DNA from: Acidimicrobiaceae bacterium
GTDB lineage: Bacteria > Actinomycetota > Acidimicrobiia > Acidimicrobiales > RAAP-2
NCBI GenBank assembly: GCA_003155915.1
Contig: PMFA01000006.1
Coordinates: 1-53,310, forward strand
DNA length: 53,310 bases
Reading direction: 5' to 3'
The number at the start of each line of letters is the position of its first letter. The stretch's first letter is position 1. Position numbers and translations under genes: made by a program. Of this stretch, positions 2,622 through 24,476 are shown one piece after another. A model generated the notes under the pieces. That model did not search any database. It worked only from the letters and a program-made list of their open reading frames with translations, and had not been told where the DNA came from.

Positions 2622-3464
2622 ATGTCCGACGTGGTGAGAGCAGCGCTGGTGCAAACGGCGTGGACCGGCGACAAGGCTTCGATGATCGATCTCCACGAGC
2701 ATCACGCTCGGGCGGCCGCCTCACAAGGCGCCCAAGTGATCTGCTTCCAAGAGCTCTTCTACGGTCCGTACTTCTGTCAGGTCCAAGACGCGACCTTCTA
2801 CGACTACGCCGAATTCGTGCCGGAAGGTCCGACGACGCAGCGCTTCATGGCCCTCGCGGCTGAGTTGAACATGGTCATGATCTTGCCCGTCTACGAGATG
2901 GAACAAGAGGGCGTCCTCTACAACACCGCCGCGGTCATCGACGCCGACGGAACGTACCTCGGCAAATACCGCAAGACGCACATCCCCCAGGTGAGCGGTT
3001 TCTGGGAGAAGTTCTACTTTCGTCCGGGCAACCTCGGCTTTCCGATCTTCGATACGGCCGTGGGACGGATTGGCGTCTACATCTGTTACGACCGACACTT
3101 TCCCGAAGGGTGGCGCGCCCTGGGCCTCGCCGGCGCCAAGATCGTCTTCAATCCTTCGGCGACCAGTCGCGGCCTGTCGGCCTACCTCTGGCAACTGGAG
3201 CAGCCCGCCTCAGCCGTCGCGAACGAGTACTTCGTCGGTGCCATCAACCGCGTCGGCGTGGAAGAACTCGGCACGAACGACTTCTACGGCCAGAGCTACT
3301 TCGTGAATCCGCGCGGACAGTTCGTGGGAGACGTGGCGAGCACGTCCGATGAGGAATTGATCGTGCGCGACCTCGACATGGACCTCTTGAAAGAGGTCCG
3401 CGAGCAGTGGGCCTTCTACCGCGATCGCCGTCCCGACATGTACGAACCACTGACGGACTGGTAA
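2622..3464 (+). CDS. Nitrilase-superfamily N-carbamoyl amidohydrolase (beta-ureidopropionase type)
   Basis: 280 residues covering one carbon-nitrogen hydrolase domain. The catalytic triad is visible: Glu44 in FQELFYGPYF, Lys118 in YRKTHIP and Cys155 in YICYDRHFPE. The YFxPG and NPSATSRG stretches fit the beta-ureidopropionase / N-carbamoylputrescine amidase branch. The expected reaction is hydrolysis of an N-carbamoyl amine or amino acid to the amine, CO2 and ammonia. The ATG at 2622 is preceded by GAGGAGG; an in-frame upstream extension to 2607 runs through that site and is rejected. The next gene, a dihydropyrimidinase, begins immediately after the stop, so the pair would carry out steps two and three of reductive pyrimidine or hydantoin breakdown. 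Substrate (carbamoyl-beta-alanine versus another ureide) is inferred from that neighbour. Confidence 0.88.
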   Translation: MSDVVRAALVQTAWTGDKASMIDLHEHHARAAASQGAQVICFQELFYGPYFCQVQDATFYDYAEFVPEGPTTQRFMALAAELNMVMILPVYEMEQEGVLYNTAAVIDADGTYLGKYRKTHIPQVSGFWEKFYFRPGNLGFPIFDTAVGRIGVYICYDRHFPEGWRALGLAGAKIVFNPSATSRGLSAYLWQLEQPASAVANEYFVGAINRVGVEELGTNDFYGQSYFVNPRGQFVGDVASTSDEELIVRDLDMDLLKEVREQWAFYRDRRPDMYEPLTDW

Positions 3465-4880
3465 GTGTTGGCGCGCGTACTTATCTGCGGCGGTCTCGTG
3501 CTCTCGGCCACGGGAGCCCAGAACTACGACGTCTTGATTGACGGCGACGAGATCGCGGCGCTCGGCACGCCCGGCTACTTCGAAAGCGTGAAACCAACCT
3601 GCGACCGGGTGCTCGACGCGTCGGGCAAATACGTCATCCCCGGTGGCGTCGACGTCCACACCCACATGGAGCTGCCCTTTGGCGGCACGAACGCTTCGGA
3701 CACGTTCGAGACGGGCACGATCGCCGCGGCCTTCGGCGGCACGACGTCGATCGTGGACTTCGCGGTACAACGCACTGGCGAGGACGTGCACGACGGGTTG
3801 GCCGCGTGGCACGAGAATGCCGACGGGAACTGCGCGATCGACTACGGCTTCCACCAAATCATCGGCGGCGTCGACGACGCGGCGCTGAAGGCGATGGCGG
3901 ACCTCACGAACAGCGAAGGCGTCACGAGCTTCAAACTGTTCATGGCCTACCCCGGTGTCTTCTACTCCGACGACGGTCAAATCCTTCGCGCGATGCAAAC
4001 CGCCGCGGACCTGGGTGCCACGATCATGATGCACGCCGAGAACGGCCCCGCCATCGACGTCCTCGTCGCCCAAGCGCTCGAGCGTGGGGAGACCGATCCT
4101 CGCTATCACTCGCTGACGAGGCCGGTTGAGTTGGAAGAAGAGGCGACGCATCGAGCGATCATGCTGGCGAAGGTCACCAAGGCGCCGCTCTATATCGTCC
4201 ATGTGAGCTCATCTGATGCCGTCGAAACGATCGCTCGGGCGCGCGGTCTCGGCGCCAACGTCTTCGCCGAGACCTGTCCCCAGTACCTCTACTTGAGTCT
4301 CGAGGAGCATCTTTCCAAGCCCGGTTTCGAAGGAGCGGCCTACGTCTGTTCGACGCCGCTTCGTTCGCGCGCCGAAGGACACCAGGAATCACTGTGGCGA
4401 GCACTTCGCACGAACGACGTGTCGGTCGTCAGCACCGACCACTGTCCGTTCTGTATGAAAGACCAGAAGGAGTTAGGACTGGGCAACTTCTCCAAGATCC
4501 CCAACGGCATCGGCTCGGTCGAGCACCGGATGGACCTGCTGTACCAGGGCGTCGTCACCGGCGAGATAACCCTGTCGCGCTGGGTGGAGCTGGCCTCGAC
4601 GACGCCCGCGCGGATGTTCGGGCTGTACCCGCGAAAGGGAGTGATCGCACCGGGGTCCGACGCCGACATCGTCATCTACGACCCGAAGGGCACGACCGAT
4701 ATCAGCGTGAAGACGCACCACATGAACATGGACCACTCGGCCTTCGAGGGCACGCATATCGACGGCCGGGTCGTGACCGTGCTCTCGCGCGGTCGGATCG
4801 TCGTCGAGAACAACACGTTCACCGGTGCGGTCGGACACGGGAAGTTCTTGCGTCGGGGCCTCAGTCAGTACCTGGTGTAG
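3465..4880 (+). CDS. hydA: Dihydropyrimidinase / hydantoinase
   Basis: 471 residues, the usual length of cyclic amidohydrolases of this family. Metal-site residues are in place: His65 and His67 (GVDVHTHMELP), the lysine to be carbamylated at 157 (SFKLFMAYPG), His190 (MMHAENG), His246 (IVHVSS) and Asp325 (STDHCPF). It would open dihydropyrimidine or 5-substituted hydantoin rings to N-carbamoyl amino acids, the substrates of the preceding enzyme. The GTG start follows the upstream TAA with no gap, implying translational coupling; a TTG at 3468 is the only close alternative. The 47-nt gap to the LLM-family oxidoreductase suggests a three-gene operon. No dihydropyrimidine dehydrogenase is seen in the window. 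Confidence 0.92.
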   Translation: MLARVLICGGLVLSATGAQNYDVLIDGDEIAALGTPGYFESVKPTCDRVLDASGKYVIPGGVDVHTHMELPFGGTNASDTFETGTIAAAFGGTTSIVDFAVQRTGEDVHDGLAAWHENADGNCAIDYGFHQIIGGVDDAALKAMADLTNSEGVTSFKLFMAYPGVFYSDDGQILRAMQTAADLGATIMMHAENGPAIDVLVAQALERGETDPRYHSLTRPVELEEEATHRAIMLAKVTKAPLYIVHVSSSDAVETIARARGLGANVFAETCPQYLYLSLEEHLSKPGFEGAAYVCSTPLRSRAEGHQESLWRALRTNDVSVVSTDHCPFCMKDQKELGLGNFSKIPNGIGSVEHRMDLLYQGVVTGEITLSRWVELASTTPARMFGLYPRKGVIAPGSDADIVIYDPKGTTDISVKTHHMNMDHSAFEGTHIDGRVVTVLSRGRIVVENNTFTGAVGHGKFLRRGLSQYLV

Positions 4881-4927
4881 GACGTCGCCGAGGCGTTCGA
4901 CGTGACCATCAAGTGAAGGGAGTGACC

Positions 4928-5950
4928 ATGGAGTTCGGTGTTGTCCTGCAGACGAATCCTCCGGCCTCTCGCGTCGTTGAAGTGGCCACGCGCGCCGAAC
5001 AACTCGGATTCCACTACGCGTGGACCTTTGACTCGCACATCTTGTGGGAAGAACCCTTCGTGATCTACAGCCAGATACTGGCCTCGACGCGCACGATCAA
5101 AGTCGGTCCGATGGTCACCAACCCGGCCACGCGCGACTGGACGGTGACCGCGAGCCTCTTTGCGACATTGAACGAGATGTACGGCAACCGCACGGTCTGT
5201 GGTATCGGTCGCGGCGACTCGGCCGTTCGCGTGACGAATGGCAAGCCCACGACGCTCGCCACACTGCGTGATTCGATCGAAGTGATTCGCGAACTCGCGA
5301 ATGGCCGTTCGGTCGAGTATCACGGTTCGATATTGCAGTTTCCGTGGGTCGTCGACAGTGAACTGGAGGTCTGGGTCGCGGCCTACGGTCCGAAGGCGCT
5401 CACGCTCGCCGGCGAAGTCGGCGACGGCTTCATTTTGCAACTGGCCGATCCCGACATCGCGCGACGGATGATCACCGCGGTCCGTGAGGCGGCTGCGAAC
5501 GCCGGGCGCGACCCGGCGTCGTTGACGTTCTGTGTCGCGGCGCCAGCCTACGTCGGTGACGACCTCGCGCACCAGCGCGACCAGTGTCGTTGGTTCGGCG
5601 GCATGGTTGGAAATCACGTCGCCGACATCGTCGAGCGTTACGGGAGCGATCACGGTTCATCGATCCCGCCAGCGCTGACCGAGTACATCAAGGGACGCGA
5701 GGGCTACGACTACGCCGAACACGGGCGCGCTGGAAACACGCACACCGAATTCGTGCCCGATGAAGTCATCGATCGGTTCTGTCTGCTGGGACCGGTGGAG
5801 CGCCACCTCGAACGTCTCGAGGAGTTGCGCGCGCTGGGCGTCGACCAGTTCGCGCTCTATCTGCAGCACGACGCCAATTCCGAGACGCTCGAGGCCTACG
5901 GCGAAATGATCATTCCGATGATGAACGAGTCCTCAACATCGACGTCGTAG
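4928..5950 (+). CDS. LLM-class (luciferase-like) F420- or FMN-dependent oxidoreductase
   Basis: 340 residues forming one luciferase-like TIM-barrel domain: MEFGVVLQTNPP start, HYAWTFDSH around the first strand-loops, VGPMVTNPATRD, the GIGRGDSAVR motif and ELEVWVAAYGPKAL. These resemble the F420-type LLM family close to methylene-tetrahydromethanopterin reductase that is often found next to dihydropyrimidinase genes. ATG at 4928 is preceded by GAAGGGAG; the open frame continues upstream through hydA but that extension is a shadow. The position suggests it acts on the pyrimidine or hydantoin pathway, perhaps the ring redox step, but neither cofactor nor substrate can be proved from sequence. 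Confidence 0.82.
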   Translation: MEFGVVLQTNPPASRVVEVATRAEQLGFHYAWTFDSHILWEEPFVIYSQILASTRTIKVGPMVTNPATRDWTVTASLFATLNEMYGNRTVCGIGRGDSAVRVTNGKPTTLATLRDSIEVIRELANGRSVEYHGSILQFPWVVDSELEVWVAAYGPKALTLAGEVGDGFILQLADPDIARRMITAVREAAANAGRDPASLTFCVAAPAYVGDDLAHQRDQCRWFGGMVGNHVADIVERYGSDHGSSIPPALTEYIKGREGYDYAEHGRAGNTHTEFVPDEVIDRFCLLGPVERHLERLEELRALGVDQFALYLQHDANSETLEAYGEMIIPMMNESSTSTS

Positions 5951-6105: not shown

Positions 6106-7299
6106 ATGAAGGTACTCGTACTCGGCGGCGACGGATTCTGTGGCTGGCCCACCTCGCTGCACCTCTCGGACAACGGCTACGACGTCATCGTCGTCGACAA
6201 CCTCAGTCGTCGCGAGATCGACCTCGAGCTCGAGGTCGAGTCACTGACCCCGATTCGACCGATGGGTGAGCGAATTCGTACGTGGAAGGAGTTGACCGGG
6301 AAGGACATTGGCTTCGTCAACCTCGACCTCGCCGAAGAGTATGAGCGGTTCCTCGAGCTACTGCGCGACGAGCGTCCCGACGCGATTGTGCATTTCGGTG
6401 AGCAGCGCGCGGCGCCGTATTCCATGCGCAACGCCGCGGCCAAGCGTTACACGGTCGACAACAACGTGCGAGGCACCCACAACGTTCTCGTCGCCATCGT
6501 GGAGAGCGGTCTCGACATTGCTCTCGTGCACCTCGGCACCATGGGCGTCTACGGCTACGGCTGGTCCGGCTCGGCGCCGATCCCCGAGGGCTACCTCACC
6601 GTGAAGGTACCCACTCCCGACGGCGAGATCGAGCGCGAGATCCTGCACCCGGCCAACCCCGGCTCGGTGTATCACATGACCAAGACGCTCGACCAACTGC
6701 TCTTCGCCTTCTACGCGAAGAACGACCAACTGCGCATCACCGACCTCCACCAGGGCATCGTGTGGGGAACGCAAACACCACAGACCGTGCTCGACGAACG
6801 GCTTATCAACCGCTTCGACTACGACGGTGACTACGGCACGGTGCTGAATCGCTTCTTGATGCAGGCGGCCATCGGTCACCCGTTGACGGTGCACGGCACC
6901 GGCGGACAGACGCGCGCCTTTATCCATATCCGCGACACGGTCCGGTGCATCCAAATCGCCTTGGAGAATCCGCCGACGCGCGGAGACCAGGTCAGCGTCT
7001 TTAACCAGGTGACCGAGACCTACCGCGTGAGTGAACTCGCCGAACTGATCGCCAAGGAGACCGGCGTGAAGATCGCGCACTTGCCGAACCCCCGCAAGGA
7101 GGCCGTGGAGAACGAGCTCAACGTCAGCCGCGACCGCTTCATCGCGCTCGGACTTCACGCCACGACGCTCACCGAGGGCCTGCTCGAGGAGATTCGCGAC
7201 ATCGCCAACAAGTACAGCTACCGCGCCGACACGACGAAGATCATCGCGCGCTCGGTGTGGAATCAAGGTATGGAGACTTCACCGGACTTGGTTGGCTGA
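6106..7299 (+). CDS. sqdB: UDP-sulfoquinovose synthase (SQD1/SqdB family)
   Basis: 397 residues, an extended SDR-fold enzyme of the right length. The N-terminus LVLGGDGFCGWPTSLHLS is the hallmark nucleotide-binding loop of SQD1/SqdB. Thr145 (HLGTMGVYG), Tyr189 and Lys193 (YHMTK) make the catalytic set, and the VWGTQT segment and the FIHIRDTV region also fit. The enzyme joins sulfite to UDP-glucose to make UDP-sulfoquinovose, the head-group donor of the sulfolipid SQDG or of sulfoquinovosylated glycans. ATG 6106 has AGGAG upstream. No SqdX/SqdD-type glycosyltransferase lies nearby; the next gene, 36 nt downstream, is a sugar isomerase. A hairpin-like CCCC/GGGG pair at 6042-6055 precedes it. 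Confidence 0.88.
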   Translation: MKVLVLGGDGFCGWPTSLHLSDNGYDVIVVDNLSRREIDLELEVESLTPIRPMGERIRTWKELTGKDIGFVNLDLAEEYERFLELLRDERPDAIVHFGEQRAAPYSMRNAAAKRYTVDNNVRGTHNVLVAIVESGLDIALVHLGTMGVYGYGWSGSAPIPEGYLTVKVPTPDGEIEREILHPANPGSVYHMTKTLDQLLFAFYAKNDQLRITDLHQGIVWGTQTPQTVLDERLINRFDYDGDYGTVLNRFLMQAAIGHPLTVHGTGGQTRAFIHIRDTVRCIQIALENPPTRGDQVSVFNQVTETYRVSELAELIAKETGVKIAHLPNPRKEAVENELNVSRDRFIALGLHATTLTEGLLEEIRDIANKYSYRADTTKIIARSVWNQGMETSPDLVG

Positions 7300-7335
7300 G
7301 ACATCGAGTACCTCCAGGCTCGAAGGGACTAGCCG

Positions 7336-8361
7336 ATGACGACAATCTTCGAAGAGGAGATTCGCTCCCAGGGCGACATCCTTCGTCGACGCGCGGAACT
7401 CGGCATGCAACAGGCGCGCGACGCCGCTGGCTCGTGGCGAGACGTGGACTACGCACTCGTCGCGGCTCGTGGTTCTTCGGACAACGCCGCGGCGTTCTTC
7501 CAATACCTCGCCGGTCGTGAACTCGGTCTCGTGGTCGCACTGGCGACGCCGTCGCTCTTTCAAGACGAGCGGACCATGAAAGTCGACGGCGCCGGTGTGC
7601 TCGCCGTCTCCCAGTCGGGCAAATCTCCGGGCATGATCGAGGTCGTTCGAACGGCGCGCGCGCAGGGCCGTCCGAACGTCGTGGTCACCAACGACGCCCA
7701 CTCGCCACTCGCCCTCGAGGGAGATTCCGTGGTGGAACTCTTCACTGGACCGGAACGCGCTATCGCATCAACGAAGACCTTCACGTCGAGTTGTCACGCG
7801 TTGGCGCAGTTCGTCTCGGCTCTAAGCGGGAGTTCGCTCGACGGCCTCGACGCAGTGCCCGACATCATTGAGCGCACGGCCGAGTGGGCACTCACGAATG
7901 CCCTGCCGACTTCGCTACTGAACGCCGCGGGCGGACTGACGGTCGTCGGTCGCGGCATCGGCTACGCGAGCGCGGCGGAGATTTCGCTCAAGATTCGCGA
8001 AGTCACCGGAATCCGCTCCGAGGCCTACTCCGCACCCGACTACTTGCACGGGCCGATTGGTGCCGATGGGCAAGGTGCGACGCTGCTCGTCGTCGTGACC
8101 GACGAGATGGAAGACGAGATCGCGGCCAGTCTCATCGAGCAGTGCTCGCAGCGCGGTATGCGAACTGTTATGTTGCGCTCTTTCGAACACTCGCCACAGG
8201 CGAGTGACGCCGACATCGTGGTGCCCGAATCGATGGATAATTGGTGCCTTGGTTTGGCGTTGGTGGTGGTCGGACAGGTTTTGTCGTTGCGTCTGGGCGA
8301 ACTTCGCGGACGTCCGATTGATACTTCACCGGGACTTAACAAAGTCACACTCACGGCGTAA
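7336..8361 (+). CDS. SIS-domain sugar-phosphate isomerase/deaminase (GlmS-C / NagB-II-like)
   Basis: 341 residues with two SIS domains. The first holds ARGSSDNAAAFFQY and the phosphate-binding VSQSGKSPGMIEV; the second begins near GRGIGYASAAEISLKIRE, where the ExxLKxxE-like helix of GlmS-type isomerases is recognisable (EISLKIREV), followed by YLHGPIG. There is no glutaminase domain, so it is an isomerase-only paralogue such as glucosamine-6-phosphate deaminase type II or AgaS. The nearby GH20 hexosaminidase and oligosaccharide-type importer suggest it handles GlcN-6-phosphate or a related amino sugar. It follows sqdB closely on the same strand and ends 229 nt before the transporter gene. Confidence 0.8.
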   Translation: MTTIFEEEIRSQGDILRRRAELGMQQARDAAGSWRDVDYALVAARGSSDNAAAFFQYLAGRELGLVVALATPSLFQDERTMKVDGAGVLAVSQSGKSPGMIEVVRTARAQGRPNVVVTNDAHSPLALEGDSVVELFTGPERAIASTKTFTSSCHALAQFVSALSGSSLDGLDAVPDIIERTAEWALTNALPTSLLNAAGGLTVVGRGIGYASAAEISLKIREVTGIRSEAYSAPDYLHGPIGADGQGATLLVVVTDEMEDEIAASLIEQCSQRGMRTVMLRSFEHSPQASDADIVVPESMDNWCLGLALVVVGQVLSLRLGELRGRPIDTSPGLNKVTLTA

Positions 8362-8560
8362 CGCGCCTTCAAATTTAGGCATTTTCCTGTACTAGGTTCT
8401 CTGGCAGGTGCATTCTGGTAGGGGAGCGATCAACATCGATTTCGTGATGTCGTGTGGCGCTGAGTTGCAATCGCGCGACACCGTCGTCGGAGTTGGTTCG
8501 ATCGAAATCACCAAAGTGAATCGTTAAGGGAATCATCGACGAATGGTTCGATGAAGGAGT

Positions 8561-8587
8561 GAACCTTCGGGTTCTTAAAGGAGTTTC
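8561..8587 (+). promoter_or_regulatory. Short leader hairpin and ribosome binding site before the transporter operon
   Basis: GAACC (8561-8565) pairs with GGTTC (8570-8574) across a TTCG tetraloop-like turn; AAAGGAG follows at 8578-8584, 6 nt before the ATG at 8591. A second Shine-Dalgarno-like GAAGGAG lies at 8553-8559. The rest of 8362-8560 shows no gene and no convincing promoter box to my eye. A role in operon expression is speculative. Confidence 0.3.
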
Positions 8588-8590
8588 ATT

Positions 8591-10249
8591 ATGAGAAGGA
8601 AGTCCCGGGTAGGTCTTCTTGCTTCGACACTCGCTCTCGTGGCCAGCACGTGCGTGATGGGAATGCCGGCCATTGCCGGAGCGTCCGGTCAGACACCACT
8701 GAACCTCGACAACGAGCAAGGTGAACTGTGGCCATGTGCGTTCACACCGTTCAACGGATTCGACGCGATGTTCTCGGTGGGCACGATCTACGAGACGCTC
8801 GACTTCGTGAACGCTCTGCAGAATTCGAAGGTCACGCCGTGGCTCGCGACCGCGTACGCGTGGAGCAACAACAACAAGACCCTGACCTTCACCATCCGCT
8901 CCGGTGTGAAATGGACCGACGGCACTCCCTTCAGCGCCGCCGACGTCGCCTACACCTTCAACCTCTTGAAGAAGTACCCGGCCCTCGATCTCAACGCGGT
9001 GTGGTCGGTGCTCTCGAGTGTCAAGCAGAGTGGCTCGAACAAGGTGGTCTTCGACTTCTCGAAGTCGGCCGTGCCGTACTTCTACTACGTCGCGGACCAG
9101 GTTCCGATCGTGCCCGAGCACATCTGGAGCAAGATCAAGAACCCGGTCACGGACCCGATCGCCAAGCCCGTGGGCACCGGTGGCTACGAGTTGGCCAGTT
9201 GCACGCCCCAGAACATCAAGTGGACAGCGAATCCGAACTACTGGCAGAAGGGTCTGCCCGTCGTGAAGACGCTGAACATGCCCGCGTTCCTCTCGAACAA
9301 CACGGCCAACGAGTACTTGGCCCAGGGCTCGTCGGCCTACGGCGCGCAGTTCATCCCGAACATCAAGAGCTACTTCGTGGCGAAGAAGGCCGGCAACGGC
9401 TACTGGTTCCCGCCCGTCGCCAACGTCTCGCTCTTCCCGAACCTGAAGAGCGGACCGACCGCGGACGTCGCGGTTCGCGAAGCGATCAGTTACGGCCTGA
9501 ACCGCGCTGCGATCTCCAAGATCGGTGAGTACGGCTACGAGCCGCCCGCGAGCCAAACCGGCGTCGTGGCGCCCACCTTCAAGGCGTGGAGCAGTTCGTC
9601 GGCGACGGCGTTGGCCGGCAAAGGCTACGACCCGGCGAAGGCCATCTCGGTCTTGAAGGCCGACGGCTACAAGATGGGGAGTGACGGCTTCTTCTCGAAG
9701 AACGGCAAGGAACTGAGCCTGACGGTCATTACCAACGGGGGCTACTCCGACTGGGTGGCCGACATGCAGGTCGTGAGCCAACAGCTCGCCAAGGTCGGCA
9801 TCAAGGTCACCGTCGACGGCGCCGCCGCGTCGAACTTCACGACCGACGTCTTGAACGGACAGTTCCAGTTGGCCTACGACGTGGAGACCGGTGGTCCGTC
9901 GCCGTTCTACGAGATGCGCCAGTGGTTGTACTCGAAGAACTCCGCCGCTATCGGTTCGCCGGCGCCGTCGAACTGGGAGCGTTTCTCGAGCCCCGCGGTC
10001 GACGCGCTGTTGAACCAGTACGGTTCGACGACGAGTTCGGCCACGCAGCACTCGATCATCGACAAACTGCAGACGATCATGGTGCAACAGTTGCCGGTCA
10101 TCCCGGTCTTGGAAGAGGTCGACTGGTTCCAGTACAACTCTGATGAGTACTCCGGCTTCCCGTCGGCAACGAACCCCTACGCGCAGCCCGGCCTGTACAA
10201 CGTGCCGGACTGGGGTGTCGTGGTACTGCACCTGAAGCCAAAAAAGTAA
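8591..10249 (+). CDS. ABC transporter substrate-binding protein, SBP family 5 (Opp/Dpp type)
   Basis: 552 residues. A Sec signal peptide (basic MRRKSR, hydrophobic core, cleavage near AIAGA) is followed by the large two-lobe family-5 fold with the typical FTIRSGVKWTDGTPFSAAD signature near residue 100 and NPNYW, and an AISYGLNR helix. A Cys at residue 18 lies inside the hydrophobic core but in a poor lipobox context. Family 5 binds peptides, nickel, and also chitin and plant oligosaccharides. The downstream permeases, ATPases and especially the GH20 hexosaminidase favour an oligosaccharide such as a chitooligosaccharide, as in the Vibrio chitobiose operon, but peptides (for example muropeptides) remain possible. 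Confidence 0.9.
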   Translation: MRRKSRVGLLASTLALVASTCVMGMPAIAGASGQTPLNLDNEQGELWPCAFTPFNGFDAMFSVGTIYETLDFVNALQNSKVTPWLATAYAWSNNNKTLTFTIRSGVKWTDGTPFSAADVAYTFNLLKKYPALDLNAVWSVLSSVKQSGSNKVVFDFSKSAVPYFYYVADQVPIVPEHIWSKIKNPVTDPIAKPVGTGGYELASCTPQNIKWTANPNYWQKGLPVVKTLNMPAFLSNNTANEYLAQGSSAYGAQFIPNIKSYFVAKKAGNGYWFPPVANVSLFPNLKSGPTADVAVREAISYGLNRAAISKIGEYGYEPPASQTGVVAPTFKAWSSSSATALAGKGYDPAKAISVLKADGYKMGSDGFFSKNGKELSLTVITNGGYSDWVADMQVVSQQLAKVGIKVTVDGAAASNFTTDVLNGQFQLAYDVETGGPSPFYEMRQWLYSKNSAAIGSPAPSNWERFSSPAVDALLNQYGSTTSSATQHSIIDKLQTIMVQQLPVIPVLEEVDWFQYNSDEYSGFPSATNPYAQPGLYNVPDWGVVVLHLKPKK

Positions 10250-10274
10250 TCAATTGTCGGTCTGAGTCGGGGAG

Positions 10275-11258
10275 ATGAGGTTCCTAGCTCGCCGTCTGGG
10301 TTTTCTGCTCATTGCATTGTGGGCAGCCATGACGGTGAACTTCCTCATCCCTCGACTCATGCCGGGCAACCCCGCCGAGGCGATGATGGGGCGACTACGC
10401 GGTCACATCAACCCGGCGTCGCTGAAGGCCCTCGAGGTCGCCTTCGGCATCAATACGCACCAGAGTCTGATCTCTTCGTATTTCGCCTACCTGAACAACT
10501 GCGTCCACCTCAACTTCGGGATCTCACTGTTGGACTTCCCCGAACCGGTGAGTCACGTCATCGCCCAAGCCCTGCCGTGGTCGCTCGGACTCGTGGGTGT
10601 CAGCACAATCCTCGGCTTTCTTATCGGGACCATGTTGGGCGCCGTTGCGGCGTGGCGCCGGGGCGGTGCGCTCGATAGCGTCCTGCCGCCGGTCTTCATC
10701 GTGATCTCGGCCTTCCCGTACTTCTTCCTCGGACTGCTGTTTATCTGGTTCTTCGGGTTGACGCTCGGCTGGTTCCCGATACTCGGGGGATATACCGAAA
10801 CCGCGACACCGTCCTTGACGCTGGGCTTTATCTGGAACATCATCGATCACTCCATTCTCCCGGCCTTCACGATCTTGATCACGTCGATCGGTGGCTGGAT
10901 CCTCACGATGCGCAACAACATGATCACGGTCGTGGCCGAGGACTACGTCAAGATGGGACGGGCCAAGGGCCTCAAGCCCCGTCGCATCCTCTGGCAGTAC
11001 GCCGGACGCAACGCGCTCTTGCCGAACTTGACCGGCTTTGCGATGTCGCTGGGCTTCGTGATCTCAGGCGCGATACTTGTCGAGTACGTGTTCAACTATC
11101 CCGGATTGGGATTCTTGCTACTGCAGGCCGTGGAGAACGAGGACTTCCCGCTGATGCAGGCGCTGTTCTTGCTCATCACGGTGGCGGTCCTCGTCGCGAT
11201 TTTCATCGCTGACATCGCCACGTCGCTGCTGGATCCTCGAACAAGGACCACCTCGTGA
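10275..11258 (+). CDS. ABC transporter permease, DppB/OppB type
   Basis: 327 residues with the DppB plan: N-terminal membrane segment (LGFLLIALWAAMTVNFLIPRLMPGNP), a periplasmic stretch, then five further hydrophobic helices. The cytoplasmic coupling loop is visible as EDYVKMGRAKGLKPRRILWQYAGRNA, the EAA motif that contacts the ATPase. GGGGAG lies directly before ATG 10275. The gene follows the binding protein by 25 nt, and its stop overlaps the next permease by 4 bp (GTGA). It would form one half of the membrane channel with the following DppC-type protein. Confidence 0.92.
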   Translation: MRFLARRLGFLLIALWAAMTVNFLIPRLMPGNPAEAMMGRLRGHINPASLKALEVAFGINTHQSLISSYFAYLNNCVHLNFGISLLDFPEPVSHVIAQALPWSLGLVGVSTILGFLIGTMLGAVAAWRRGGALDSVLPPVFIVISAFPYFFLGLLFIWFFGLTLGWFPILGGYTETATPSLTLGFIWNIIDHSILPAFTILITSIGGWILTMRNNMITVVAEDYVKMGRAKGLKPRRILWQYAGRNALLPNLTGFAMSLGFVISGAILVEYVFNYPGLGFLLLQAVENEDFPLMQALFLLITVAVLVAIFIADIATSLLDPRTRTTS

Positions 11259-12151
11259 GAGCGCTTCGAGTTCTCTTGCACGTGCCCGGCCGGGTGTTTC
11301 GTTTCATGCGACGTGACAAGAAGGCCGCCACCGGGGCGATCATCCTCTTCGTCTTGCTGGTGTTGACGGCCTTCCCGACGTGGTTTACACCGCACGACCC
11401 GGCCGCCGAGATCTACACGCCGGGCGCCGCTGTCTCGTGGTCGCACCTGCTCGGAACGACGTCCTTCGGCCAGGACGTGTTCTCCCAAGTGATCGCGGGG
11501 ACCCGCCAGTCCGTGATGATCGCGTTGATCGTGGGATTCTTCTGCACCGTGATCTCGGTCATCGTGGGAATTTCGGCCGCCTACATGGGCGGCATCGTCG
11601 ACGACGGACTGTCGCTCTTGACCGACGTCGTGCTCGTCATCCCCACGTTCCCGTTGATCATCGTGATCGTCGGGTACCTCAAGAGCGCCGGTTTCTGGCT
11701 GATGGTGTTCGTGCTCGTTTTCACCGGTTGGTCCTACGGGGCCAGGCAACTCCGCGTCCAGGCGCTGTCGCTGCGAAATCGCGACTACCTGCTCGCGGCC
11801 AAGGCCCGGGGCGAATCGAGTTGGTACGTCATCACGGTCGAGTTGATACCGCCGATGACGTCGCTCATCGTGGCCAATTTCCTCGGCGCCGCGCTCTACG
11901 CCGTGCTCGCGTCGGCCGGACTGCAGTTCGTCGGACTCGGCAACCTCAATGCCGAATCGTGGGGCACGATGTTGTACTGGGCGCAGAACAACGAGGCCCT
12001 GCAAACGGGACTTCCGCTATGGGCGTTGGCCCCCGGCGTCGCGATCGCGATCCTCGGCAGCGGCCTCGCGCTGCTCAACTACGCCTTTGACGAGGTGGCG
12101 AACCCCGCGTTGCGACCGGTACGAGCCATGAAGAAGCGCAGGGTGGCGTGA
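11255..12151 (+). CDS. ABC transporter permease, DppC/OppC type
   Basis: 298 residues starting with GTG at 11255, overlapping the upstream stop. It has a short basic N-terminus, a first membrane helix (GAIILFVLLVLTAFPTWF), the HLLGTTSFGQDVFSQVIAGTRQS segment typical of DppC proteins near residue 65, and the EAA coupling loop RNRDYLLAAKARGESSWYVI near residue 175. It pairs with the DppB-type permease. A GTGA overlap couples it to the first ATPase gene. Confidence 0.92.
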   Translation: MRALRVLLHVPGRVFRFMRRDKKAATGAIILFVLLVLTAFPTWFTPHDPAAEIYTPGAAVSWSHLLGTTSFGQDVFSQVIAGTRQSVMIALIVGFFCTVISVIVGISAAYMGGIVDDGLSLLTDVVLVIPTFPLIIVIVGYLKSAGFWLMVFVLVFTGWSYGARQLRVQALSLRNRDYLLAAKARGESSWYVITVELIPPMTSLIVANFLGAALYAVLASAGLQFVGLGNLNAESWGTMLYWAQNNEALQTGLPLWALAPGVAIAILGSGLALLNYAFDEVANPALRPVRAMKKRRVA

Positions 12152-13125
12152 GCGAGCCGATCCTTCAAGTTCGCGACCTCCGAGTCGAGTACGCCACGCC
12201 GGCCGGCCCCGCCCAAGCCGTCGGCGGTGTCTCCTTCGACCTCGCCAAGGGCGAGTTCCTCGCCATCGTCGGCGAGTCGGGTTGCGGAAAGTCGACGCTG
12301 CTCTTCGCCGTCGCCCAACTACTCACGTACCCGGGCCGCCTGGCCGGTGGCGAGGTGCTCTTCGACGGCGTGGACTTCACGACGCTCAAACCCGAAGAAC
12401 TACGACTGCACCGCTGGAGGGACATCTCGGTCGTCATGCAAAGCGCTATGAACGCGCTCAACCCGACGCTGACAATCGGTGCCCAACTGACCGACGCGTG
12501 CAAGGCGCACACCGAATGGAGCGACGAGAAGATCGCGCAACGCTCGGCCGAGGTGCTCGCCATGGTTGCCATCGACGCGGTGCACTTGAAGAGCTACCCC
12601 TTCCAGCTCTCGGGCGGCATGCGACAGCGCGCGATGATCGCCATGGCGCTTCTTCTCGAGCCCAAACTGGTCATCATGGATGAGCCGACTTCGGCGCTGG
12701 ACGTCGTGGCGCAACGTTCACTCATGCACCAGGTCGAGACGCTGCGCCACCAGTTGGGCTTCGCGGTCATCTTCGTCACGCACGACATGAGCGTCGTGTC
12801 GCACTACTCCGATCGACTCGCGGTGATGTACGCCGGTGAGATCGTCGAGCTCGGTCCGACGCGCGAGGTCTTCGACCGACCGGAGCACCCGTACTCCCAG
12901 GGACTCATGGAGGCGTTCCCGTCGCTGCTCGGCGAGTCCAAGCAGCTCACCGGCATCGCCGGCAATCCGCCGTCGCTCGTGGACCCCCCGGAGGGATGTC
13001 TCTTCGCGCCGCGCTGCGCGTACGCGAACGATGAGTGTCGCAGCGTTCGTCCCGAACTGATCGCCTACGGGAACCACCAAGTGCGTTGCCACCTGGTCGC
13101 TCGAACGAGGAAGAACGATGCCTGA
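12148..13125 (+). CDS. ABC transporter ATP-binding protein, DppD/OppD type
   Basis: 325 residues. Walker A GESGCGKST (residues about 41-49), Q-loop VVMQSAMNALNP, signature LSGGMRQR, Walker B LVIMDEPTSALD and the switch His in VTHDMS are all present. The C-terminus contains the oligopeptide-family extension with GCLFAPRCAYANDEC, whose cysteines are characteristic of the Opp/Dpp group. GTG 12148 overlaps the permease stop; the stop at 13125 overlaps the next ATPase start by 8 bp. It would energise transport together with that second ATPase. Confidence 0.92.
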   Translation: MSEPILQVRDLRVEYATPAGPAQAVGGVSFDLAKGEFLAIVGESGCGKSTLLFAVAQLLTYPGRLAGGEVLFDGVDFTTLKPEELRLHRWRDISVVMQSAMNALNPTLTIGAQLTDACKAHTEWSDEKIAQRSAEVLAMVAIDAVHLKSYPFQLSGGMRQRAMIAMALLLEPKLVIMDEPTSALDVVAQRSLMHQVETLRHQLGFAVIFVTHDMSVVSHYSDRLAVMYAGEIVELGPTREVFDRPEHPYSQGLMEAFPSLLGESKQLTGIAGNPPSLVDPPEGCLFAPRCAYANDECRSVRPELIAYGNHQVRCHLVARTRKNDA

Positions 13126-14080
13126 CGCCATCTTGAGGGTCCAGGACCTCACGCGACTGTTCCGAGTCGGCGGCTTTCGCACGCGCGGACAACTGCACGC
13201 CATCGACGAGGTCTCCTTCGAAGTCGCGTCGGGCGAGATCGTGGCGCTCGTCGGCGAGTCGGGCTCGGGCAAGTCGACGATCGCGCGGGTCCTGGCGGGG
13301 TTGTATCCGGCGACGTCGGGCTCGTTCGTGTTCGAGGGCAAGGCCATGGGTCGTCGCGAGGTTCGCGCGAGCCGGGGCGATATGCCGATGGTCTTTCAGG
13401 ATCCCTTCGGTTCGATCAACCCCGTCTTGCGGGTCGGCCACGCACTGTTGCGTTCACTGAAACTGCACCGCCCCGACATCAAACGCGCCGATCGTTTCGC
13501 CGAGGCGGTCGCGTTGGTCGAGAAGGTCGGGCTCACGCCGGGCGAGGAGGTACTGCGCCGTTACCCGCACGAGCTCTCCGGCGGACAGCGCCAACGCCTG
13601 GGCTTCGCCCAGGCGTTGGCGTCGCGACCGTCGCTGATCCTCGCCGACGAGCCGGTCTCCATGCTCGACGTCTCGATTCGCATCGGTCTGCTGAACGTCA
13701 TGAAGGAGTTGCGCGACAACGAGGGCGTCTCCATCCTCTACATCACGCACGACCTGGCCAGCGCGCGCTACGTCGCCGATCGCATGATTGTCCTCTACGC
13801 CGGTCGGATCGCCGAAGAGGGTCTCACCACTGAGGTGATCGGTTCGCCGCAACACCCCTACACGCGACTGCTGATGTCCTCAGCGCCCGACCCGCACCTC
13901 GCGCCGACGGCCTTTGAGGGCGACGACCTGGGTGAGCCACCCAAGGTGATAAACCCCGGACCCGGGTGTCGCTTCGCGCCGCGATGTCCACTGGCCATGG
14001 ACCAGTGCGTGGTCACCACACCGCCGATGGTGGCACTCTCGGCGACCCATCACGCGGCCTGCTACGCAGTGAAGCCGTAG
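13118..14080 (+). CDS. ABC transporter ATP-binding protein, DppF/OppF type
   Basis: 320 residues. Walker A GESGSGKST, Q-loop MVFQDPFGSINP, signature LSGGQRQRLGFAQAL, Walker B LILADEPVSMLD, switch His in ITHDLASARY, and the C-terminal CRFAPRCPLAMDQC cysteine cluster of the Opp/Dpp group. ATG at 13118 is inside the end of the previous gene. Its TAG (14078-14080) shares one base with the GTG of the following GH20 gene, so hexosaminidase synthesis is likely coupled to the transporter. Confidence 0.92.
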   Translation: MPDAILRVQDLTRLFRVGGFRTRGQLHAIDEVSFEVASGEIVALVGESGSGKSTIARVLAGLYPATSGSFVFEGKAMGRREVRASRGDMPMVFQDPFGSINPVLRVGHALLRSLKLHRPDIKRADRFAEAVALVEKVGLTPGEEVLRRYPHELSGGQRQRLGFAQALASRPSLILADEPVSMLDVSIRIGLLNVMKELRDNEGVSILYITHDLASARYVADRMIVLYAGRIAEEGLTTEVIGSPQHPYTRLLMSSAPDPHLAPTAFEGDDLGEPPKVINPGPGCRFAPRCPLAMDQCVVTTPPMVALSATHHAACYAVKP

Positions 14081-15606
14081 TGGACGTCACCCTCGTTCCT
14101 CTGCCACGCTCAATGGACGTTCGCAGCGGGACGTTGACGCTTCACTCGCCGCTGCGAATATCGGTTGAAAGCGAATGGCGCGACGTCGTCGAGACCTTTG
14201 CGCGGGACCTCACCGCATCGATCGGCTGGGACGTCGAGTTCGTGGACGGCTCGACGACGCCTGACGTGATCATTCGCAAGGTGAACGACTGCGGCGACGA
14301 GGAGTATCGCCTGTCGATCGACGAGGAGGTCACAATCGACGCCAGCACTGCGGCCGGCGTCGCGTACGCTCTCACGGTCCTTCGCCAACTGGGGCCGAAC
14401 GCCCTCTGGTCGAGCGCCGCGACGCTCGACACGCTCGAACTCCCTCGGCTCTTCATTGAAGACGGGCCGCGCTTCGCGTGGCGCGGTGTTCACCTGGACG
14501 TGGCTCGTCATTTCTTCGACGTCGAGACGGTCTGTCGGCTGATCGATCAGATTGCGGCGCACCGACTCAATCGACTTCACCTCCACCTCAATGACGACCA
14601 GGGCTGGCGCGTCGAGGTACCGCAATGGCCACTCCTGGGTTCCGTTGCGTCGGTGCGCCGCTCCTCGCCGATCGGGCACGAAGGCGACGGCCTCGACGAC
14701 GACGTCGAGCACGCCGGTTGCTATAGCGCGCCGGACCTCGAAGCGATCCGTCAACACGCTCTTCGACGCTTCGTCACGATCGTCCCGGAGATCGATCTGC
14801 CCGGTCACGCCCAGGCGGTGATCGCCGCGTACCCCGACCTGGGAAACGGTGACGAGCCGTTGGAGGTGTGGGCTCGTTGGGGGATCAGTGAGCACGTACT
14901 CAATGTCGGGGAGCGTGCCTTGACCTTCGCCGAAGACGTCGTGCGCTACGTCGCGAGTCGATTTCCCGGAAGTCCGGTTCACATCGGCGGCGACGAGTGT
15001 CCGACGACCGAATGGGAGCGGAGTGAACTCGCTCACGCCGTGATGGCCGAGCTCGGATTCAGCGACGAGCGTCAGTTGCAAGGGCTCTTCACCGATCGGC
15101 TGACCGCGGCGCTTCGTAGGGACGGACACGAAGTGCTGGCGTGGGACGAGGTGATGGACGCCGACGTCGACCAGGACGTCGTGATCTGCGCGTGGCGCCA
15201 CTCCGTGCGCGGGCGACTCGCGGCCGAGTCGGGACACGACGTCGTCATGGCGCCGATGCAGTTCCTCTACTTTGACTGGCTGAGCAGCGACGAGGTGGAT
15301 GAACCGGTCGCCCTGGCTCCGCGACCGGCGGTCACGACCTGGGAGAAGGTCTATCGGTTCTCGGTGATCCCTCCCGGGCTCGACGAGAAGTATTGGCATC
15401 ACGTGCGAGGGGCGCAAGTACAACTCTGGAGCGAGTACATTGCCACGCGCGAGCACTTGGACTACATGGCCTTTCCGCGCACGGCCGCTTTCGCCGAGGT
15501 CGTCTGGGGGAACCCGGAGTCCCTTGATTCGTTTCGTCCCCGCCTCGCGCGCCACGCGCAGCGACTGGCGGCGATGGGCGTTCACTTCCGGCCACTTGAC
15601 CGCTGA
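14080..15606 (+). CDS. Beta-N-acetylhexosaminidase, glycoside hydrolase family 20
   Basis: 508 residues with no signal peptide, so probably cytoplasmic. An N-terminal GH20b-like domain (residues 1-125) is followed by the catalytic barrel beginning RFAWRGVHLDVARHFF. HLHLNDDQGWRVE and the catalytic pair Asp305-Glu306 in HIGGDECPTTEW are conserved, with WDEV and VQLWSEY near the C-terminus supplying active-site Trp and Glu. It releases terminal GlcNAc or GalNAc from oligosaccharides using substrate-assisted catalysis. The GTG at 14080 overlaps the upstream ATPase stop; the open frame extends back to 13966 but only as a shadow. The stop TGA overlaps the next ATG (TGATG). It would cleave what the adjacent transporter brings in. 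Confidence 0.92.
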   Translation: MDVTLVPLPRSMDVRSGTLTLHSPLRISVESEWRDVVETFARDLTASIGWDVEFVDGSTTPDVIIRKVNDCGDEEYRLSIDEEVTIDASTAAGVAYALTVLRQLGPNALWSSAATLDTLELPRLFIEDGPRFAWRGVHLDVARHFFDVETVCRLIDQIAAHRLNRLHLHLNDDQGWRVEVPQWPLLGSVASVRRSSPIGHEGDGLDDDVEHAGCYSAPDLEAIRQHALRRFVTIVPEIDLPGHAQAVIAAYPDLGNGDEPLEVWARWGISEHVLNVGERALTFAEDVVRYVASRFPGSPVHIGGDECPTTEWERSELAHAVMAELGFSDERQLQGLFTDRLTAALRRDGHEVLAWDEVMDADVDQDVVICAWRHSVRGRLAAESGHDVVMAPMQFLYFDWLSSDEVDEPVALAPRPAVTTWEKVYRFSVIPPGLDEKYWHHVRGAQVQLWSEYIATREHLDYMAFPRTAAFAEVVWGNPESLDSFRPRLARHAQRLAAMGVHFRPLDR

Positions 15607-21978: not shown

Positions 21979-23142
21979 TTGGAGTTCATGAACTGGGTCG
22001 ATGCGCTCATCGTTGGGATCGTCATTTTGGCCGCGATCTGGGGCTGGTTCCAAGGCGCTATCCGACAGGTCTGCGGTTGGATTGGCCTGATCGCTGGCTT
22101 CTACGTCGGTATCGCAATTGCGCCGTCGCTGTCGACGAAGATCACGCACTCGTCGTGGCGACCGATCCTCGCGCTGGTCATCGCCGTGGTCGCCGCCTAC
22201 GTCGGAAATTCTCTCGGTCACCTACTCGGTTCGACCATCCGAAAGACCGTGAAAATGGTGAAGTTGGGCCTCGTCGACTCCGTCGCCGGCGTGGTCGTCG
22301 GTGTCGCGGGTGCGCTCATTACGGTTTGGCTCGTCGCGGCGCTGCTGGTCGCCACGTCGTGGTCCACCGCCGCCAGTGGGATTCAGGGATCGCGCATCAT
22401 TGACGCCCTCGACAAGGCGTTGCCGACCGTTCCCTCGGCTGAGGCCCGACTCCAGAGCCTGCTACGCAACGCCGACTTCCCGAGTGTGTTCACGAGCACG
22501 GTCTCGCCAACCGTTCCGTTTTCGGGTGCGGTGCCGACGCTCGCCAAGAACAGGTTGTCACCTCGTTCGCCGAGTCAGGTCGTCAAGGTTCTCGCGTTGG
22601 GGTGCGCCGGCACCCACCAGGGCACGGGCTTCTTCATCGCGCCACACCTCGTAGTGACGAACGCGCACGTGGTGGCGGGCGCCACCAGCGTCACGGCCGC
22701 GGGAGCGACCGCGCAAGTAGCGCTCTTCGACCCGGTGAACGACGTCGCGGTTCTTCGCGTCTCGACGCTGCTGAGCACGGCGCCAATGAGTTTCGCGACG
22801 ACGGCTCCGTCCTCGGGGGCAAAGGCCGAGGTGATCGGCTTCCCGCTCGACGGCACACGGACAATCAGCCCTTCGATCATCGGCGGCCAGATCACCTCGG
22901 AGTCGAGGGACCTCTACGACACGGAGACCTTTGCTCGCGCCCTGCTCGTCGTCTACACCAACATCGAACCGGGTAACTCCGGCAGTCCGGTGATGGTCCG
23001 CGGTGACGTCACGGGCGTCGTGTTCTCGATATCAACCACCCAAGGCGAGACGGCCTACGCTATTCCGGCCGCCACCGTCGAGAGTGACCTCGCCAAGACG
23101 CCCCCACAAGGGACGCAGTCGACGCAGAGTTGTTTGAACTAG
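21979..23142 (+). CDS. MarP-like membrane serine protease (CvpA domain plus trypsin-like domain)
   Basis: 387 residues. Residues 1-130 hold four membrane helices of the CvpA/colicin-V type; residues about 200-375 form a chymotrypsin-like protease with GTGFFIAPHLVVTNAHVV (catalytic His), PVNDVAVLRV (Asp) and EPGNSGSPV (Ser). This domain order is that of mycobacterial MarP (Rv3671c), a periplasmic protease needed for acid and oxidative resistance. Two Cys flank the protease (LGCAG and the final SCLN), as in MarP where disulfide formation tunes activity. The TTG at 21979 has GGGAG 9 nt upstream; an ATG at 21988 is the alternative. The stop shares CTAG with the convergent aminotransferase. Confidence 0.88.
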   Translation: MEFMNWVDALIVGIVILAAIWGWFQGAIRQVCGWIGLIAGFYVGIAIAPSLSTKITHSSWRPILALVIAVVAAYVGNSLGHLLGSTIRKTVKMVKLGLVDSVAGVVVGVAGALITVWLVAALLVATSWSTAASGIQGSRIIDALDKALPTVPSAEARLQSLLRNADFPSVFTSTVSPTVPFSGAVPTLAKNRLSPRSPSQVVKVLALGCAGTHQGTGFFIAPHLVVTNAHVVAGATSVTAAGATAQVALFDPVNDVAVLRVSTLLSTAPMSFATTAPSSGAKAEVIGFPLDGTRTISPSIIGGQITSESRDLYDTETFARALLVVYTNIEPGNSGSPVMVRGDVTGVVFSISTTQGETAYAIPAATVESDLAKTPPQGTQSTQSCLN

Positions 23143-24476
23143 CTGGCGGAACGAACGGCGGCGCGCAGGACGTCGAGTCCGTCGGCGAGCTGCGCGTCGG
23201 TGATCACGAGTGGCGGCAGCAGTCGTACCACGTTGCCGTACGTGCCACACGAGATCGCGATGACACCGTTCTGGTTGCAGTAGTTAACGATGGCCTTGAC
23301 GGCCGCGGGGTTCGGATCCTTGGTGCCGGGCTGGACGAACTCCATCGCGACCATCGCGCCACGTCCGCGCACGTCGCCGATGATGGCGACGTCCTGGGCC
23401 AGGGAACGCAGGTTGGCGAAAAGGATGTCACCGATCTCGCGGGCCCGCTCGACCAAGTTTCGGTCGCGCAGGGTCTTGATCGTGGCGAGTGCCGCCACGC
23501 AGGCCACCGGGTTGCCGCCGTAGGTTCCGCCGAGCCCGCCTTCGTGCACGGCGTTCATCAACTCCACGCGACCCGTAACGCCGGCCAACGGCATGCCGCC
23601 CGCCAGACCCTTGGCGGTCGCCACGATGTCGGGGATCACGCCTTCGTGGTTGACGGCGAACCAGTCACCGGTACGACAGAAGCCACTCTGGATCTCGTCG
23701 GCGATGAAGACGACGCCGTTGGTCGTCGTCCACTCCGACAGAGCCGGTAAGAAACCGTCGGCCGGTACGACGAAGCCTCCCTCGCCCTGGATGGGCTCGA
23801 TGAGCAGAGCGGCGACGTTCTTCGCGCCGACCTCGGTTTCGATCATCCTTATCGCTCGCGCGGCCGCGTCGGCGCCGCTCAGTCCGTCGCGGAAGGGGTA
23901 GCTCATCGGTACGCGGTAGATCTCGGGCGCGAAGGGACCGAAGCGGTCCTTGTAGGGCATGTTCTTCGCCGTGAGCGCCATCGTCAGGTTGGTGCGTCCG
24001 TGGTAGGCGTGGTCGAAGACGATGATGGCCTGGCGACCGGTGGCGAGGCGAGCGATCTTGACGGCGTTCTCGATCGCTTCGGCGCCGGAGTTGAAGAGCG
24101 CCGAGGTCTTGGCGTGCGAGCCGGGCGTCAGAGCCGCGAGCTCCTCACACACCTCGACGTAGCTCTCGTACGGGTTGACCATGAAACAGGTGTGCGTGAA
24201 GGCCGCCACCTGCGCACTCACGGCGTCGACGAGTTCCGGCACGGCGTGACCGATGCTCGTCACGGCGATGCCCGAGCCGAGGTCCAGGATTTGATTGCCG
24301 TCGACGTCGACGAGAATGGCGCCCTCGGCACGGTCGATGTAGATGGGGAATCCCTGGGTCAGTCCGGCGCTCACGACGGCGTGACGGCGCTCGTGCAGGG
24401 CGCGGGACCTTGGACCGGGCAATTCGGTGATGACCTTGCGCTCGGTTCCTACTGATGTATCGACTGACGAGACCAT
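23139..24476 (-). CDS. gabT: 4-aminobutyrate aminotransferase
   Basis: 445 residues, class-III PLP aminotransferase. Conserved segments run in order: DVDGNQILDLGSGIAV, the SGAEAIENAVKIAR cofactor-phosphate loop, FDHAYHGRT, EPIQGEGGF, the PLP-contacting IADEIQSGFCRTG and the Schiff-base Lys in ATAKGLAGGMPLAG. The close match to GABA transaminases (IQSGFCRTG, GGTYGGNPVACVAA) indicates transfer of the amino group from 4-aminobutyrate to 2-oxoglutarate; 5-aminovalerate is another possible substrate. AAGGAG precedes ATG 24476. No succinate-semialdehyde dehydrogenase gene is adjacent. Confidence 0.88.
   Translation of the reverse strand: MVSSVDTSVGTERKVITELPGPRSRALHERRHAVVSAGLTQGFPIYIDRAEGAILVDVDGNQILDLGSGIAVTSIGHAVPELVDAVSAQVAAFTHTCFMVNPYESYVEVCEELAALTPGSHAKTSALFNSGAEAIENAVKIARLATGRQAIIVFDHAYHGRTNLTMALTAKNMPYKDRFGPFAPEIYRVPMSYPFRDGLSGADAAARAIRMIETEVGAKNVAALLIEPIQGEGGFVVPADGFLPALSEWTTTNGVVFIADEIQSGFCRTGDWFAVNHEGVIPDIVATAKGLAGGMPLAGVTGRVELMNAVHEGGLGGTYGGNPVACVAALATIKTLRDRNLVERAREIGDILFANLRSLAQDVAIIGDVRGRGAMVAMEFVQPGTKDPNPAAVKAIVNYCNQNGVIAISCGTYGNVVRLLPPLVITDAQLADGLDVLRAAVRSAS

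Follow-up and report, generated by a model that had tools for sequence, protein, structure and literature searches.

A candidate F420H2-dependent dihydropyrimidine dehydrogenase of the TIGR03842 family in Actinomycetota

Which enzyme could reduce the pyrimidine ring where the genes for opening that ring stand together without PydA or PreTA? The question is raised by three consecutive genes on the plus strand of contig PMFA01000006.1 from an Acidimicrobiaceae bacterium (assembly GCA_003155915.1), which we analysed over positions 1-53,310, a stretch of 53,310 nucleotides referred to here as the window. At positions 2622-5950 these genes encode a CN-hydrolase, a HydA protein and an LLM-class oxidoreductase, hereafter the LLM protein (Table 1). 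We propose that the LLM protein acts as an F420H2-dependent dihydropyrimidine dehydrogenase in place of PydA/PreTA, a role that its sequence relatives, its gene context and its modelled fold make quite probable. With less assurance, we also lean towards a broader view, in which the TIGR03842 family is a non-orthologous replacement of PydA/PreTA and the main uracil and thymine reducer of Actinomycetota, and in which the F420 encoded on Leisingera plasmids is made chiefly for pyrimidine catabolism. The window is one ordinary member; the interest lies in the comparative picture.

The module, its genome and the fold of the LLM protein

A preliminary description of this DNA had an amidase and a dihydropyrimidinase tightly coupled, with the LLM gene next in line, and the gene boundaries bear this out. 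The amidase gene starts at the ATG at position 2622, ahead of which lies a GGAGG-like site; the GTG start of hydA abuts the TAA stop of the amidase gene with no gap; and the ATG of the LLM gene follows 47 bases past the hydA stop, with a GGGAG stretch ahead of it. By its family score (TIGR02033), HydA can be placed as the dihydropyrimidinase of the Pyd pathway, its substrate being predicted from the family. Its closest solved structure is the dihydropyrimidinase 3sfw (E 2e-145), and it contains the motifs DVHTH, SFKLFMAY, MHAEN, IVHVSSS and STDHCPF, which we take to serve the metal site.

The amidase had been given the label ‘ureidopropionase-type’. The protein belongs to the CN_hydrolase family and lies near the beta-ureidopropionases: its closest solved structures are an N-carbamoylputrescine amidohydrolase and then 2vhh, 8pt4 and 6ftq, of which 2vhh carries only the database title CG3027-PA and is presumably a beta-ureidopropionase. 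It contains the motifs QELFYG, YRKTHIP and ICYDRHFPE at residues 43, 116 and 154. However, it falls below every equivalog cut-off, so that the label is a probable one drawn from family likeness. The nearest equivalog is TIGR03381 (N-carbamoylputrescine amidase, AguB), and we rejected that assignment because the score of 258.5 bits misses the cut-off of 410.25.

The LLM protein is a member of TIGR03842 (F420_CPS_4043), an NCBIfam hypothetical equivalog whose name carries no function, and its match spans residues 2-332. PF00296 is its sole Pfam domain, and the combination of DHO_dh (PF01180) and iron-sulfur domains is absent from it. Among the matches listed, its nearest named relatives are encoded by metagenome-assembled genomes of Acidimicrobiaceae, at 91% identity.

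The preliminary description had also noted that PydA/PreTA is missing, and a search of the rest of the genome agrees. This genome comprises 2.52 Mb in 29 contigs and is 95.65% complete, which limits claims of absence. The PreA model NF006183 has no match in it at E<=1e-40, and its single PF01180 protein is probably the biosynthetic PyrD because it is encoded between carB-like and pyrF-like open reading frames (neighbours identified by eye from translations). Candidate genes for the later steps are present: a (methyl)malonate-semialdehyde dehydrogenase (MMSDH) at G000:C16:38954 (TIGR01722 637.9 bits, cut-off 448.5) and, some 17 kb away from the module, a class III aminotransferase (Table 1). 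Of the proteins of this genome, the latter best matches the aminotransferase found in relatives' operons, at only 31% identity, and it is a candidate for beta-alanine transamination. The genome probably makes F420, judging from CofD (G000:C19:65864; 317 bits, cut-off 257.45), the one F420 gene searched there.

Table 1 Features of the window, with strand and best family score
Feature	Positions	Strand	Family score
CN-hydrolase (nitrilase superfamily), probable beta-ureidopropionase (PydC role)	2622..3464	+	PF00795 228.6 bits
Dihydropyrimidinase / D-hydantoinase (HydA, PydB role)	3465..4880	+	TIGR02033 556.9 bits, cut-off 393.25
LLM-class oxidoreductase, proposed F420H2-dependent dihydropyrimidine dehydrogenase	4928..5950	+	TIGR03842 585.6 bits, cut-off 295.45
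4-aminobutyrate-type class III aminotransferase	23139..24476	-	TIGR00700 573.3 bits, cut-off 506.65

In an AlphaFold2 model of the LLM protein (33 rows, pLDDT 89.5), the predicted fold is nearest to that of Mer in both fold comparisons (1z69; Z 34.7, root-mean-square deviation 2.6 over 314 residues). The first 15 of the 50 entries in the fold list are all F420-dependent enzymes, and FMN-type enzymes come next; the F420-dependent alcohol dehydrogenase 1rhc reaches Z 31.4. A sequence profile of the LLM protein gives a similar order, again with Mer first. Two conserved segments, WFxxMVGNHV and YDYxxHG, are candidates for residues of the pocket. A likeness of fold to F420 enzymes is not proof of cofactor, and the LLM protein is not itself a Mer: it scores 128.5 bits against TIGR03555, where the cut-off is 348.7, and its gene context differs. 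Mer is nevertheless its nearest relative by solved structure and by sequence, and hydride transfer from F420H2 is a likely common mechanism.

The same comparisons bear on the idea that the LLM protein is a ring-opening monooxygenase like RutA, which opens the ring with FMN and O2 and does not need a dihydropyrimidinase. The two proteins have a superfamily in common, RutA acts on uracil, and RutA structures appear in the predicted fold list at Z 23.4-23.8. However, these lie behind the leading F420-dependent entries, and F420 genes are linked to LLM genes (see below). No protein of the genome exceeds the cut-off of 498.3 of the RutA model TIGR03612; the best score, 62.9 bits, belongs to a protein outside the module, and the LLM protein of the window does not appear among the matches at E<=0.001. 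A dihydropyrimidinase would, moreover, be redundant after oxygenase ring opening, and we regard a RutA-like role as extremely unlikely.

Distribution of LLM and PreA across genomes

If the LLM protein replaces PreA, the two families should seldom be found in one genome. We searched 296 Acidimicrobiia genomes alike for LLM (over cut-off), PreA (NF006183, E<=1e-40) and HydA (E<=1e-100); as a control, the PreA model recovered E. coli over cut-off, as expected. LLM was found in 89 genomes, PreA in 11 and HydA in 130 (127 over cut-off). LLM and HydA occur together in 85 genomes (Fisher p 2.9e-35; these genomes are related, and this and the following p values overstate their independence). The two genes lie within 15 kb of each other in 69 of the 89 LLM genomes, on the same strand in 68. 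The 130 HydA genomes divide into 83 with LLM only, 9 with PreA only, 2 with both and 36 with neither (Fisher p 0.0012). Within one family of 29 genomes (f31), LLM and PreA are found in nine genomes each and in none together (Fisher p 0.027).

The pattern extends to the phylum. Among 246 Actinomycetota genomes, 53 contain LLM, two contain PreA and none contains both; 41 of the 53 LLM genomes belong to other classes, and all 41 are without PreA. LLM and PydA/PreTA are thus nearly mutually exclusive across genomes, have an operon type in common (see below) and would, as proposed, catalyse the same reaction. In contrast, the proteins are unrelated: PydA/PreTA combines DHO_dh, iron-sulfur and FAD domains and uses FMN, iron-sulfur clusters and FAD, whereas the LLM protein has the luciferase-like fold of PF00296 and is proposed to use F420.

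Two groups of genomes depart from the common arrangement. LLM and PreA meet in the class sample only in G187 (contig C20, stretch L098) and G090 (contig C87, stretch L099); the PreA of G187 lies at a contig end, is 42% identical to the reference and may be a different enzyme of the DHO_dh type. In family f26 (stretches L067, L068 and L084-L086), LLM stands apart from HydA, by 13-50 kb in three genomes, and two genomes have no HydA match; an alpha/beta-hydrolase-like gene, recognized by eye, lies near LLM in four of the five stretches.

ALTERNATIVES in one operon: LLM compared with PreT-PreA

The surroundings of LLM were compared in 40 stretches selected from the 89 LLM places of the class, some of which end at contig ends; genes here and in the named loci below were counted by tblastn. 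HydA occurs in 33 of them and the amidase in 30; MMSDH (25 stretches), the aminotransferase (21) and an SsuA-like binding protein (18) follow. Together they make up a set of amidase, aminotransferase, HydA, MMSDH and SsuA-like ABC transporter. HydA also accompanies PreA in 6 of 11 PreA stretches. The fullest of these, L090 and L093, have the order amidase, aminotransferase, HydA, MMSDH, ABC transporter, PreT, PreA. When L093 is set against L073, which comes from the same family, LLM in L073 takes the place of PreT-PreA within the shared gene set. The operon MMSDH scores 710 bits against TIGR01722 (cut-off 448.5). For the PreT-like protein, the matching models are of the GltD type, and its scores stay under the cut-offs of these models.

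A wider set of named loci, the best 80 of at least 591 LLM relatives and nearly all titled Actinomycetota, was examined with flanks of up to 10 kb. HydA is found in 78 of these loci, the amidase in 74 and MMSDH in 43. Aminotransferase matches, often at about 31% identity, may represent other class III enzymes. PreA or PreT is matched in none of the 80 loci within these stretches. Nor was PreA found in any of the 40 named LLM genomes that were searched, which were drawn from 42 of the 80 loci and are mostly Actinomycetes by title, with at least one (Ilumatobacter) from the class.

MMSDH helps to judge a second alternative, in which the LLM protein would be an F420-dependent malonic semialdehyde reductase that forms 3-hydroxypropionate (the role of PydE), with the ring reduced by an unrecognized enzyme. 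The alcohol dehydrogenase 1rhc is a near match to the predicted fold, and PydE, a malonic semialdehyde reductase, is described among the Pyd cluster genes (PMC7332683). However, MMSDH, which would consume malonic semialdehyde, accompanies LLM in 25 of the 40 class stretches and 43 of the 80 named loci; it also occurs without LLM in five of the six HydA-containing PreA stretches; and it is with PreA that LLM is mutually exclusive. We therefore consider such a reductase very unlikely.

A maximum-likelihood tree of HydA (52 rows) bears on whether one arrangement has repeatedly given way to the other. The PreA label requires five changes, each of which is imposed by branches with good support; for the LLM label the number is seven, with six imposed in this way. 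For three PreA rows (G070, G243 and G276) the pairing with PreA is at genome level only, not by operon, and without them three LLM/PreA changes remain, one in the class and two in Rhodobacterales. The long branches L104, L107, L108 and L066 are of unsure placement. On this evidence one can weigh a third alternative, that the LLM protein has no part in pyrimidine breakdown, its co-location being historical and the exclusion of PreA a matter of phylogeny. The sampled genomes are indeed relatives of one another, PreA is scarce in the phylum sample (2 of 246 genomes) and the operon-linked rows contain a single change in the class. The two further changes in Rhodobacterales speak against it, as does the linkage of LLM to HydA, which is maintained across Acidimicrobiia, Actinomycetes and Leisingera, and we find a purely historical association highly improbable.

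Two HydA-containing stretches carry a second pair of HydA and CN-hydrolase genes (L103, 6860-15004; L106, 6541-13104) near a molybdenum-hydroxylase-like set recognized by eye, which encodes proteins of about 790 and 165 amino acids and, in L106, one of 290 amino acids. No TIGR03842-family LLM or PreA gene was recognized in these two intervals. This second pair may belong to an oxidative route for ureides or pyrimidines.

F420 linkage, the proposed pathway and neighbouring genes

Within the class, CofD is nearly universal (276 of 296 genomes, that of the window included), which makes its association with LLM uninformative there. At least one F420-biosynthesis gene is matched within 10 kb of LLM in 23 of the 80 named loci, in varying arrangements. 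In Agromyces and Cryobacterium, cofD is upstream of LLM and on the other strand; some Arthrobacter have cofE upstream; and in Arthrobacter sp. MYb23 the genes downstream of LLM are cofD, cofE and parts of CofG/CofH that probably belong to one fused FbiC gene. When F420-gene stretches were tested against NCBIfam, all seven fell into the expected families, six over cut-off and the CofH part below.

Linkage is also seen on plasmids. A search of 72,556 plasmid records returned LLM in 12, of which ten are from Leisingera, one from Paracoccus and one from Streptomyces. In one plasmid record each of Leisingera caerulea and L. aquaemixtae, LLM, npdG, cofE, cofC, cofD, cofH and cofG run in one direction, and a divergent set comprises the transhydrogenase genes pntA and pntB, an aminotransferase, a zinc hydrolase, hydA and an NCS1 symporter of the nucleobase type. 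The Leisingera LLM protein belongs to TIGR03842 (506.2 bits), and the Leisingera and Paracoccus proteins retain 69 of the 93 residues that are invariant across 33 class members. The TetR regulator adjoining the Leisingera LLM gene matches PF08362 (147 bits), has RutR as its nearest solved protein (E 5e-44) and is RutR-like, with 194 bits against TIGR03613, below the cut-off of 368. With the regulator adjoining preA in Qingshengfaniella alkalisoli it has 47% identity; the genes there run NAD(P)-dependent oxidoreductase, preA, regulator, zinc hydrolase, hydA, ABC transporter; Roseinatronobacter has the same order. The Paracoccus alcaliphilus plasmid contains cofGH-cofDCE-npdG, then LLM, then an ABC transporter.

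In the pathway that we propose, F420H2 would supply a hydride, which the LLM protein would deliver to C6 of the uracil or thymine ring to form 5,6-dihydrouracil or dihydrothymine. HydA, acting on the substrate predicted for it, would open the ring to N-carbamoyl-beta-alanine, from which the CN-hydrolase, to judge by its family, would release beta-alanine, CO2 and ammonia. The class III aminotransferase and the CoA-acylating MMSDH, the genes for which are present, would carry the carbon on to acetyl-CoA; many relatives have both genes inside the operon, and the genome of the window has them elsewhere. Regeneration of F420H2 in Leisingera would fall to an NADPH-F420 reductase and the transhydrogenase.

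A fourth alternative sees the module as a route from hydantoins or related ureides to amino acids, in which the LLM protein would act on a substituent of the ring or use a different cyclic ureide as substrate, for example one derived from purines. Several observations fit it: the HydA family includes hydantoinases; the best specific model for the Leisingera symporter is allantoin permease, below cut-off; and a Rhodobacterales relative of the Leisingera hydA, that of Sulfitobacter SK012, lies in a hydantoin-type cluster, with neither LLM nor preA in the stretch examined. In addition, the available text of PMC12507026 proposes that in uric acid clusters of Chloroflexota a luciferase-family F420 enzyme takes the place of YgfK or of the PF01180 protein UacX. 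By description, and not by sequence, that enzyme resembles the LLM protein as an F420-type stand-in, and it differs in substrate and cluster. In contrast, the MMSDH and class III aminotransferase of many operons fit beta-alanine and beta-aminoisobutyrate, not alpha-amino acids, the redox enzyme that alternates with LLM, PreTA, acts on pyrimidines, and the Leisingera regulator is RutR-like. The hydantoin ring offers no C=C bond for reduction. Taken together, these points make a ureide role quite unlikely, and a reading confined to hydantoins is weakened by the same four features (MMSDH, aminotransferase, PreTA alternative and regulator).

The preliminary description had suggested that the LLM protein could carry a ring redox step, and the proposal of a dihydropyrimidine dehydrogenase finds support in the near-exclusion with PreA, the alternation within the operon, the linkage to F420 genes and, in Leisingera, to the nucleobase-type symporter and RutR-like regulator, and the closeness to Mer in sequence and modelled fold. 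Its ‘pyrimidine or hydantoin’ and ‘F420/FMN’ can be narrowed, on this evidence, to uracil or thymine and to F420, with hydantoin and FMN disfavoured. F420 is preferred over FMN because of the nearest relatives and the gene linkage, and FMN is compatible with the sequence.

A number of observations weigh against the proposal. LLM and PreA occur together in 2 of the 89 LLM genomes of the class (G090 and G187, on different contigs). HydA has no match at the threshold used in four of the 89, is on another contig in 14 and lies more than 15 kb away in two; CofD is unmatched in four. Because 36 of the 130 HydA genomes contain neither LLM nor PreA, HydA alone does not predict the reductase; in 21 of these 36 HydA scores below 500 bits, so that the HydA of many of them likely acts on other substrates. 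The aminotransferase and MMSDH of the window's own genome lie outside the operon, and the class shows only the single LLM/PreA change described above. On plasmids, cofG is matched in 60 records, only 11 of them among the 12 with LLM, and F420 in Proteobacteria therefore has other uses too. P. alcaliphilus has no annotated hydA in the 64 kb examined of its 403 kb plasmid. Finally, SSGG-03002 (NpsU), a putative F420/FMN oxidoreductase that genetics and nuclear magnetic resonance show to be needed for reduction of the uracil C5=C6 bond in mureidomycin, is described as inactive in vitro (PMC10714638). We liken it to the LLM protein by its described function, not by superfamily, and it differs in being biosynthetic, from uridyl peptide antibiotic clusters, with a nucleoside antibiotic as substrate.

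According to the available text of PMC7332683, the known forms of PydA use NADPH, NADH or ferredoxin and belong to one protein family; the term ‘F420’ does not occur in the main text of that paper. Among the literature matches listed, none describes a dihydropyrimidine dehydrogenase that depends on F420; this scope leaves out preprints and most papers behind a subscription, and such a description may exist in print. If the proposal is correct, there would be two independent solutions to the reduction of the pyrimidine ring, the second being an F420-using enzyme of another fold, and a hypothetical family that is widespread (53 of the 246 genomes of the phylum sample) would gain a function. The enzyme would fill in the missing first step in genomes that otherwise seem unable to use uracil. 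It could also explain why some bacteria make F420: the reason for F420 synthesis in Proteobacteria and Chloroflexi is among the unanswered questions in the available text of a 2021 review (PMC8498797), and the Leisingera locus would be a concrete answer for one lineage.

Other features of the window flank the module. Upstream, positions 1548-2507 encode a possibly membrane-anchored protein whose similarity to lipoproteins of the SCO4651 family is weak (23.1 bits, cut-off 65). Positions 1-1330 look like the edge of an integrated element adjoining the module: a minus-strand open reading frame without a Pfam match is open at the start of the window, a small HTH_17 protein is encoded beside it (873-1058), and a stretch resembling a tRNA 3' end was seen by eye near 1261-1327, where ARAGORN makes no call. 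Downstream, the genes at 6106-16610 run in one direction and encode a UDP-sulfoquinovose-synthase-like protein (331 bits, cut-off 575), a SIS-domain protein, an extracellular solute-binding protein of family 5, a GH20 hexosaminidase and a GNAT-like protein; between them stand open reading frames that look permease- and ATPase-like by eye. These genes probably form an amino-sugar uptake cluster, separate from the module.

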